From Peterkaempfera griseoplana (GTDB taxonomy: Bacteria; Actinomycetota; Actinomycetes; Streptomycetales; Streptomycetaceae), in contig NZ_LIQR01000381.1 in assembly GCF_001418575.1 (NCBI RefSeq), positions 1 to 33,232 on the forward strand: a DNA stretch of 33,232 nucleotides. Reading direction: 5' to 3'. The notes under the pieces are model-generated. The model searched no databases and had not been told where the DNA came from. It worked only from the letters and a program-made list of their open reading frames with translations. A program made the translations under genes and the position numbers. Positions 19,549 to 23,114 of the stretch are shown one piece after another. Each line of letters starts with the position of its first letter. Positions within the stretch are counted from its first letter, which is position 1.

Positions 19549-19917
19549 TCAGATGGCCGGGACTGCCACCCAGTAGCGGGTGTCATTGCTGAGGTTGGCC
19601 GAGTTGCCGTTGAGCTGGCCCTGGATCCAGTGGACCGCGTTCCGGTGGTTGTTGATGTCGGTGGTGCCCGGGTTGCTCAGACCGGAGGCCCCGTTGCGGT
19701 GTCCGGCGAACCAGGTGTGAATGCCGCAGTGGTTCCGGCTCTGGTGGAGGCAGGACACATCGGCGCTGAGACTGCTGTTGAGCACGGCGCCGTTGTTCCA
19801 CTGCGATGCGCTCTGGCCCGAGAAGGTGCTGCAGGCGACCCGGAGGTGCTCCAGGGCGCTGATGAGGGAAGCACCAGCCCGGTTCGGCGTCGATGGACAC
19901 GACAGAAATCCCCCGCG
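19549..19917 (-). pseudogene. Orphan 3' gene fragment, unknown family
   Basis: About 115 codons have normal protein composition (segments such as SASQWNNGAVLNSSLSADV, NHCGIHTWFAGHRNGASGL, SNDTRYWVAVPAI), with several Cys, Trp, His and Asn and less GC than the surroundings. No start codon is found in this frame after the terminator at 19939-19986. The open frame upstream runs through the chaplin gene in the wrong frame. A GTG in another frame near 19900 would need a frameshift to join. The likely reading is the C-terminal remnant of a secreted protein whose 5' part was lost. I do not recognise the family. Confidence 0.5.
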
Positions 19918-19996: not shown

Positions 19997-20242
19997 TCAG
20001 CCGGCGTTGACGCAGGTGTTGCCGAAGGCCGGGTTGATGGCGGCGATGAGGATGTTGACGGTGTTGCCGCAGACATTGACCGGCACCGAGACCGGCACCT
20101 GGACGACATTGCCGGAGATGACGCCGGGCGAGCCGATCGCGGCACCCTCGGCCTGCGAGCTCGCCATGGCGGAACCCGCACCCGCAGCGATCAGGCCGGC
20201 GGCGGCAAGGGAAACGGCAGCCACCTTCTTGGGCGCGTTCAT
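19997..20242 (-). CDS. Short chaplin (single domain)
   Basis: An 81-residue secreted surface protein. A signal peptide (MNAPKKVAAV, hydrophobic core, AMA cleavage near residue 27) precedes one chaplin domain: GSPGVISGNVVQVPVSVPVN, Cys58, then NPAFGNTCVNAG with Cys77. The two cysteines form the conserved disulfide of the family. Short chaplins assemble into amyloid-like films that lower surface tension and coat aerial hyphae and spores. ATG 20242 has a near-perfect TAAGGAG ribosome site. It diverges from the tandem chaplin pair across about 600 nt and has its own terminator. A loose ECF-like promoter (GGAACG, 16 nt, CGACAT) lies upstream. Confidence 0.92.
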   Translation of the reverse strand: MNAPKKVAAVSLAAAGLIAAGAGSAMASSQAEGAAIGSPGVISGNVVQVPVSVPVNVCGNTVNILIAAINPAFGNTCVNAG

Positions 20243-20836: not shown

Positions 20837-21079
20837 ATGCGCTCTTTCAAGAAGGCTGCCGTTGTGACGGTCGCGGCCTCCGGAATGATTCTGGCCGGTG
20901 CCACTGCCGCGTCCGCCAGCAGCGACGCCGAGGCGGCCGCGGTCGGATCCCCCGGTGTGCTGTCCGGCAACGTGATCCAGGTTCCGATCAACATCCCGAT
21001 CAACCTGTGCGGCAACGGCATCAACGTTCTGGCGCTGCTCAACCCGACGTTCGGCAACACCTGCGCCAACGTCGGCTGA
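20837..21079 (+). CDS. Short chaplin (first of tandem pair)
   Basis: An 80-residue chaplin. The signal peptide ends near ASA (residues 25-27), followed by one domain: GSPGVLSGNVIQVPINIPIN, Cys58, NPTFGNTCANVG with Cys76. Expected to form amphipathic fibrils on the aerial hyphal surface. GGAGGAA provides a good ribosome site. The next chaplin starts 69 nt downstream on the same strand with a nearly identical domain, so the pair probably arose by tandem duplication. A weak hairpin lies between them. Confidence 0.93.
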   Translation: MRSFKKAAVVTVAASGMILAGATAASASSDAEAAAVGSPGVLSGNVIQVPINIPINLCGNGINVLALLNPTFGNTCANVG

Positions 21080-21148: not shown

Positions 21149-21535
21149 ATGCGCAACATCAAGAAGGCTGTCTTCGTCTCCGCCGCCTCCCTCGGCGTGA
21201 TCGTGGCCGGCGCCACCGCCGCCGCCGCCCAGGGCGCCGACGCCGAGGCCGCCGCGGTCGGCAGCCCGGGTGTCGTCTCCGGCAACGTCGTCCAGGTTCC
21301 GATCGACATCCCGATCAACCTCTGCGGCAACTCGGTCAACATCGTCGGCATCCTCAACCCGGCCTTCGGCAACACCTGCATCAACGCCTCCGGCGACTTC
21401 CGTCGCCACTTCGGCCGCGGCCACGAGTCCGGCGGCGAGTTCAGCGGCCACGGCGAGCAGGCCGGCGGCGGCGGCTTCCACTCGCGCGGCAACGACAACG
21501 GCCGCGACAACCGCGACAACGACGACGACAACTGA
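21149..21535 (+). CDS. Chaplin with charged Gly/Asp/Asn-rich C-terminal tail
   Basis: A 128-residue protein: signal peptide to about residue 27, one chaplin domain (GSPGVVSGNVVQVPIDIPIN, Cys59, NPAFGNTCINA with Cys77), then a 47-residue hydrophilic tail (residues 82-128). The tail is rich in Gly, His, Arg and Glu, then Asn and Asp, ending GRDNRDNDDDN. Typical short chaplins stop right after the second Cys motif; long ones carry two domains and a sortase LPXTG signal. This one has neither, so it may be a surface-active protein whose tail stays soluble, binds cations or caps fibrils. CAGGAG is the ribosome site. A strong hairpin follows. Confidence 0.9.
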   Translation: MRNIKKAVFVSAASLGVIVAGATAAAAQGADAEAAAVGSPGVVSGNVVQVPIDIPINLCGNSVNIVGILNPAFGNTCINASGDFRRHFGRGHESGGEFSGHGEQAGGGGFHSRGNDNGRDNRDNDDDN

Positions 21536-21550
21536 TCGTCGGAACCGTCA

Positions 21551-21591
21551 GGCGCTGCCCCTCGGAGCCCGAGAGCCCGAGGGGCAGCGCC
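21551..21591 (+). terminator. Terminator after the tailed chaplin
   Basis: A perfect 15-bp stem (GGCGCTGCCCCTCGG and complement) with an 11-nt loop, 15 nt past the stop. The next gene starts only 35 nt beyond, so some readthrough is likely unless a promoter lies inside the stem region. Confidence 0.65.
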
Positions 21592-22133: not shown

Positions 22134-23114
22134 TCACTGCCGCAGGGTACGGGCGGCCTCGACGGCCCAGTAGGTGAGGATCTGGTCGGCGCCGGCCCGG
22201 TGGATGGAGGTCAGGGTCTCCATGATCACGCGGTCGCGGTCGATCCAGCCGTTGGCCGCCGCGGCCTCCACCATCGCGTACTCACCGGAGACCTGGTACG
22301 CGGCGACCGGCACCGTGGAGGCGTCGGCCACCTGCCGCAGGATGTCCAGATAGGCCATGGCGGGCTTGACCATCACCAGGTCGGCGCCCTCGGCGAGGTC
22401 CAGCTCCAGCTCGCGCAGCGCCTCGCGGGCGTTGGCCGGGTCCTGCTGGTAGGTCTTGCGGTCGCCCTTGAGCGAGGAGCCCACGGCCTCCCGGAAGGGC
22501 CCGTAGAAGCCGGAGGCGTACTTGGCGGTGTAGGCGAGCATGGCGACGTCCTGGTGCCCGGCGCCGTCCAGGGCCTCGCGGACCACTCCGATCTGGCCGT
22601 CCATCATCCCGGACGGGCCGACCATGTGGACGCCCGCCTCGGCCTGCACCACGGCCATCTCGGCGTAGCGCTCCAGGGTGGCGTCGTTGTCCACGCTGCC
22701 GTCGGGCGCCAGCACCCCGCAGTGGCCGTGGTCGGTGAACTCGTCCAGGCAGAGGTCCGACATCACGACCACCTGGTCGCCGACCTCGCCGACCACATCG
22801 CGGATGGCCTGCTGGAGGATGCCGTCCGGGTTGGTGCCCTCGGAGCCGACGGCGTCCTGCACGGCCGGGACGCCGTACAGCATGATGCCGCCGACCCCCG
22901 CCTCGGCCGCCTCCACCGCCGCCTTGCGCAGCGTGTCGCGGGTGTGCTGGACGACACCGGGCATCGAGCCGATCGGCACCGGCTCGCTGATGCCCTCCCG
23001 CACGAAGGCGGGAAGGATCAGCTGAGCCGGGTGCAGCCGGGTCTCGGCGACCAGGCGGCGCACCGCGGGGGTGGTGCGCAGCCGGCGGGGGCGGTGGAGG
23101 GGGTAGCCGGTCAT
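22134..23114 (-). CDS. hemB: Delta-aminolevulinic acid dehydratase
   Basis: A 326-residue porphobilinogen synthase that joins two aminolevulinates. The Schiff-base lysines are Lys198 ([15 protein letters not shown]) and Lys250 ([13 protein letters not shown]). The metal loop [14 protein letters not shown] keeps two cysteines (122, 132) but has Asp124 where zinc enzymes have the middle Cys, so metal use may be mixed or Mg-dependent. It is the last gene of rex-hemACDB, 40 nt after hemD. ATG 23114 begins the conserved [13 protein letters not shown]. The longer open frame is a shadow. Confidence 0.92.

Follow-up and report, generated by a model that had tools for sequence, protein, structure and literature searches.

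A tailed short chaplin of Peterkaempfera griseoplana without the terminal cysteine carried by its positional orthologues

Organization of the chaplin locus

In the window analysed here, a stretch of 33,232 nucleotides from Peterkaempfera griseoplana, a tailed short chaplin gene lies between a tail-less short chaplin gene and the gene of an orphan secreted protein, SEC (Table 1). Its reading frame opens with an ATG at 21149 and closes with the stop codon at 21533–21535, exactly as noted earlier, and the product is matched by the Pfam family PF03777 (ChpA-C) over residues 24–79 with 92.7 bits, against a curated cut-off of 21. Both cysteines of the domain are invariant in alignment A1. The translation contains no sortase signal of the LPXTG type, and both this absence and the combination of one chaplin domain with a hydrophilic, charged tail agree with the original prediction. 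The same prediction had placed the protein in neither the short nor the long chaplin class, which could not be upheld: the single domain and the missing sortase signal are those of a short chaplin, the features of the long class are absent (there is one Pfam stretch and no LPXTG/LAXTG motif, membrane segment or basic tail), and ChpG as well as many Streptomyces short chaplins are tailed. We conclude that the gene encodes a genuine short chaplin with an extension. Its core has a dN/dS of about 0.3–0.6 over 79 codons, and would on this measure not plainly be decaying. A phmmer search against the PDB found no chaplin-like chain, and the AlphaFold model, built from an alignment of 20 rows, was not usable (mean pLDDT 50, pTM 0.16).

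Table 1. Features of the chaplin locus (positions in the window)
Feature	Position	Strand	Evidence or remark
Divergent tail-less short chaplin	19997..20242	-	PF03777; same order in congeners
Tail-less short chaplin directly upstream	20837..21079	+	PF03777; same order in congeners
Tailed short chaplin, 128 aa	21149..21535	+	Translation; PF03777 E 1e-26; orthologues in both congeners
Signal-peptide-like N-terminus, about residues 1–27	21149..21229	+	Lys pair, hydrophobic stretch, Ala-rich cleavage region, read by eye
Chaplin domain with conserved cysteines C59 and C77	21218..21385	+	Pfam; alignment A1
Variable charged tail, residues 80–128	21386..21532	+	GC3 0.98; fast-drifting, present in both congeners
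Last codon AAC (Asn); TGC (Cys) in both congeners	21530..21532	+	Three 3' ends aligned, stop and hairpin in register
Strong hairpin 3' of stop	21551..21591	+	-42.7 kcal/mol with flanks, z -7.8; identical in three species
SEC, orphan secreted protein, 140 aa	21627..22049	+	Fixed downstream neighbour of Cys-tailed chaplin, three genera
hemB, conserved landmark beyond SEC	22134..23114	-	PF00490 E 7e-137

A gap of 69 bp separates the tailed gene from the tail-less chaplin gene upstream, with which it probably forms one operon, and the hairpin behind its stop codon is probably where the transcript ends; a scan for sigma-70 promoters and T-run terminators was uninformative. SEC has no family match in Pfam or NCBIfam. 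A match to it was found in 99 of the 121 family genomes searched, and hemB lies close to it in some loci of each of three genera, namely Kitasatospora, g3 and the genus of the window strain. Ten loci of Streptomyces and other genera were read, and no chaplin was detected within about 3 kb of SEC in any of them. It is possible that SEC is a coat protein. Beside the divergent chaplin gene, positions 19550–19850 have a lower GC content (0.66) and no clear conserved gene, and could represent an insertion or a decayed gene.

The charged tail and its last codon

After the domain, the window chaplin continues with ASGDFRRHFGRGHESGGEFSGHGEQAGGGGFHSRGNDNGRDNRDNDDDN, which amounts to 49 residues when counted from the domain end and to 47 when taken as residues 82–128. 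The 49 residues (G13 D7 R6 N5 H4 S4 F4 E3 A2 Q1) carry a net charge of −4. Since GC3 is 0.98 in the tail, compared with 0.96 in the core, and the stop codon is followed 15 bp on by the hairpin shared by three species, the tail is coding sequence and not read-through, and the 47-residue extension originally predicted is real.

Both congeners (G001 and G002) possess an orthologue in the same gene order, with tails that extend 60 and 51 residues past the domain, and in the core tree the window copy groups with these two (SH-aLRT 98). The congener tails, which end in ...GGDDC and ...GKDC and contain repeats such as HEYGGERG, align only loosely with the tail of the window copy, and a search within the genus using the 47-residue tail on its own returned the window copy as the sole match. 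The tail itself hence has no detectable homologue in the genus, and the orthologues surface only through their cores. It had been considered from the outset that the extension might be rapidly drifting and found in this strain only; the fast drift was confirmed, whereas the restriction to one strain was not, as both congeners carry a tailed orthologue. The suggested search for similarly tailed chaplins was likewise fruitful, tails being found in the congeners, Kitasatospora, g3 and Streptomyces. Further tailed chaplins of the same genus (L004 in G000:C279, L377 in G001 and L379 in G002) have tails of about 25–54 residues composed of Arg, Gly, Glu and His, which are without cysteine and also fast-drifting.

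The three 3' ends read GAC-AAC-TGA in the window strain compared with GAC-TGC-TGA in both congeners, and the window chaplin consequently lacks a third cysteine in the last or penultimate position, AAC replacing TGC before the stop. A single frameshift hiding the cysteine was considered and rejected, as there is no Cys codon near the end of the tail in any forward frame. The window chaplin is a positional orthologue of terminal-cysteine chaplins without their mark. The alternative to a loss in the window lineage would be an independent gain in both congeners, and the outgroups favour the loss, since Kitasatospora and g3 carry the terminal cysteine. Another short chaplin of the genome (L350, G000:C15:2423-2665) has a cysteine where the two congeners have Ser; it was judged unlikely to be a compensating gain, as it stands at −2 of the signal cleavage site expected between AGAACA and TGGG and would be removed.

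The tail as such is ordinary variation, and the unusual fact is the missing family-wide terminal cysteine. Because the residue that argues for a function is lost here, the roles originally suggested for the tail (hydration, metal binding or the capping of fibrils) cannot be read from the window sequence alone.

Terminal-cysteine chaplins in three genera

The window chaplin lies directly upstream of SEC and near hemB, and in all 66 Kitasatospora genomes counted, all 14 g3 genomes and both congeners this slot holds a chaplin with a Cys-ended tail. A terminal cysteine is thus present in 82 of the 83 genomes of the three genera, the window strain being the sole exception. By script, the chaplin directly upstream of SEC was Cys-ended in 63 of 64 Kitasatospora, 14 of 14 g3 and two of three genomes of the window's genus; in the 64th Kitasatospora genome (G080, L174) this result came from a wrongly chosen ORF, and the copy does end in cysteine (ANIDAPVEDDC). 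The count of 66 includes two genomes read outside the script (G200 and G035, both Cys-ended), while G068, G086, G148 and G190 stand outside it, the former two also having no SEC match; the genus label Kitasatospora (g14) rests on members' tails matching K. griseola and K. humi records.

The slot tails of Kitasatospora extend about 9–44 residues beyond the second core cysteine and have ends such as ADDC, EDC, DNC, DDDDC, EDCD and EDCP, and those of the SEC-adjacent chaplins of g3 include PDNC, QPGC, APC and QDC. Among the 76 Cys-tailed sequences tabulated, the cysteine stands at the very end in 70 and one position earlier in six (such as DCD, DCP and DCN), and it is preceded by Asp in 66 and by Asn in six, Asp-Cys being the usual end. 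The tails of this set measure 6–62 residues and are otherwise variable in sequence, with His in 47 of the 76 tails and an acidic residue within four positions of the cysteine in 74. That the cysteine is last or next to last, with a movable stop behind it, argues for selection at the protein level. In the 154 further single-domain chaplins collected from Kitasatospora, no cysteine follows the domain. Each Kitasatospora genome has a single Cys-ended copy, whereas those of g3 usually have two.

The g3 clusters (L275–L286, L182, L183) mostly comprise two Cys-ended chaplins. The tail of one is very short (APC, PDNC), and that of the second, which is encoded at the opposite end of the cluster, is long and often Trp/His-rich (WHHHWWHHDDD...QDCD). 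The long-tailed proteins end in DDCN, GDDCC or QDCD, several of them finishing in CC or CD. A different type of variation is seen in two Kitasatospora Cys-tailed chaplins, L180 and L181, whose cores resemble that of the divergent paralogue of the cluster in an apparent tail-sparing gene conversion; L180 (G040) still has the MQNVKK start along with its Cys tail, which suggests that conversion replaced the core and left the end in place.

In g4 (one genome read) the SEC/hemB locus is the same and the SEC-adjacent chaplin is tail-less, and in g7 (one genome) a chaplin ends in DDCEH and the SEC copy is located on another contig. Since the chaplin cores cluster by genus and not by Cys-tail class in the core tree (76 columns, poorly resolved), a putative descent of all Cys tails in the three genera from one ancestor rests on gene order, which agrees with it. 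The chaplins with a near-invariant terminal cysteine in Kitasatospora, g3 and the window's genus apparently constitute an undescribed group. Charged tails on short chaplins were known already, from ChpG and Streptomyces, and the novelty lies in the cysteine at the end of the tail. This novelty is provisional: the residue is not mentioned in the papers found by a literature search, but the search missed central chaplin papers, and most of those in subscription journals lay outside it.

A possible disulfide tether and its alternatives

As a family, chaplins have a core that is exported, loses its signal peptide and joins the amyloid rodlet layer, and the core of the present chaplins would be expected to follow the same route. 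To this core, the slot occupant in the three genera adds a length-variable, hydrophilic and mostly acidic spacer ending in cysteine. The two domain cysteines of chaplins are able to form an intramolecular bond (PMC5618249), and should the core pair here join in the same way, as proposed for other chaplins, the third cysteine would have no intramolecular partner and would be left alone at the tip of a flexible arm. From this position on the fibril surface, it could make intermolecular disulfides, either from fibril to fibril or from fibril to another envelope protein, and such a thiol tether would stand beside the sortase anchor of the long chaplins. With TGC changed to AAC in the window strain, the arm would have outlived the tether and would now be a charged brush, in which only the charge and hydration of the spacer could act. 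We consider it nearly an even chance that the tail is indeed a variable hydrophilic spacer on which a third cysteine, left unpaired, serves to tether fibrils through disulfides, and that the tether was lost in the window strain. More tentatively, and with the balance tilting against it, Kitasatospora, g3 and the window's genus may possess a second fixation of the amyloid sheath. It would be provided by a chaplin dedicated to this task, whose unpaired C-terminal cysteine, borne on a disordered arm, would link fibrils covalently through disulfides, and the window strain would be a natural Cys-loss mutant.

The terminal disulfide is putative, and several observations weigh against it. Its loss in the window strain and the tail-less chaplin beside SEC in g4 show that some lineages can dispense with the Cys-ended tail, and reduced chaplins still make fibrils in vitro, where the core cysteines are not needed (PMC3079736, PMC5618249), so that thiols may matter little. 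In addition, the frequent occurrence of His makes metal binding a competing explanation, in which the Asp/Glu/His-rich tail, with its terminal cysteine and free carboxylate, would chelate Cu or Zn on the surface of the hyphae, whether to store the metal, to sense it or to bridge fibrils through it. Many tails do end in HHHDDDC or HHDDDDC, acidic residues near the cysteine are almost universal, and copper stimulates the switch of streptomycetes to aerial hyphae (PMC3603459). However, 29 of the 76 tails are devoid of His (for example VELPPPPADNC and VDLPDDDC), as are the short g3 tails (APC, KPC, QPGC), many of which also have no acidic residue beside the cysteine, and only the cysteine is constant among the tails; we regard a metal-binding arm as unlikely. 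A plain hydrophilic brush, wetting one fibril face or setting spacing and charge like the tails of Streptomyces chaplins, with the terminal cysteine of the relatives being secondary, appears no more probable to us. It would fit with the Cys-less hydrophilic tails on other chaplins, including the second tailed chaplin of the window's genus, and with the window copy having kept its tail without the cysteine, yet it leaves unexplained why the end cysteine stays in 82 of 83 genomes while the rest drifts, and why it is absent from cluster mates.

It is also conceivable, with a low probability, that the third cysteine swaps disulfides with the core pair and thereby delays or triggers surface assembly. 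Most members have an odd number of cysteines (three), and the core cysteines matter in vivo, where aerial growth and fibril morphology suffer when ChpH is stripped of both (PMC3079736), as opposed to in vitro; on the other hand, a spacer ranging from about 5 to 62 residues seems loose for intramolecular exchange, and some g3 members end in CC. Finally, the genome is a draft of 802 contigs, and a sequencing or assembly error could in principle hide a Cys end in the window. This is very improbable, given that the difference consists of two adjacent in-frame substitutions (TG>AA) with stop and hairpin in register, and that no forward frame offers a Cys codon near the end of the tail.

Chaplins are divided into long forms, which are anchored to the cell wall, and short forms, which assemble freely, and what their cysteines do in vivo is an acknowledged puzzle. 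If the disulfide tether is true, the terminal cysteine of the relatives could introduce cross-links into the coat that surrounds aerial filaments, and the sheath of the window strain would be held without that tie. A near-invariant extra terminal cysteine on a short chaplin provides a one-residue handle for testing covalent stitching of a bacterial functional amyloid, with the window strain as a natural loss for comparison and the locus as a natural test of the role of the residue.

Comparison with known chaplins

The short chaplins ChpD–H of S. coelicolor (PF03777) share with the window copy a signal peptide, one two-Cys domain and the lack of a sorting signal, and differ from it in the extension, which comprises 49 residues in the window copy versus the 11-residue Asp/Gly tail of ChpG (PMC3079736). 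A closer likeness is offered by the tailed short chaplins of Streptomyces, in which the domain is also followed by a hydrophilic Gly/His/charged extension that varies in length; these tails are roughly 10–57 residues long, consist of His, Gly, Lys and Asp, and often end in GYGG, HGEY or GKH. Unlike the window copy, they are encoded away from the SEC/hemB locus in the loci read. A terminal cysteine was present in only two records of the Streptomyces tails collected, both with tails matching Kitasatospora copies, and as this sample was gathered by similarity to the window protein, its tail frequencies are not prevalences. Three Streptomyces short chaplins (L030, L034 and L069), one of them on a plasmid (S. 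nigrescens SNP1), have nearly identical His/Lys tails of 55–57 residues (RHVVLLRHDVEHRHF...KKHHKK), which are conserved rather than drifting.

The long chaplins are sortase-anchored, whereas the short ones are not (PMC4255298). ChpA–C resemble the window copy in having an extended region after the chaplin domain, and differ in possessing two domains and an LAXTG-type sorting signal; the window genome has such a long chaplin elsewhere (C15, L001), ending in LASTG, a hydrophobic segment and RR. The terminal-cysteine chaplins of Kitasatospora, g3 and the congeners share the SEC/hemB locus, the spacer tail and the short-chaplin core with the window copy, and differ from it by the terminal cysteine, which the window copy lacks.
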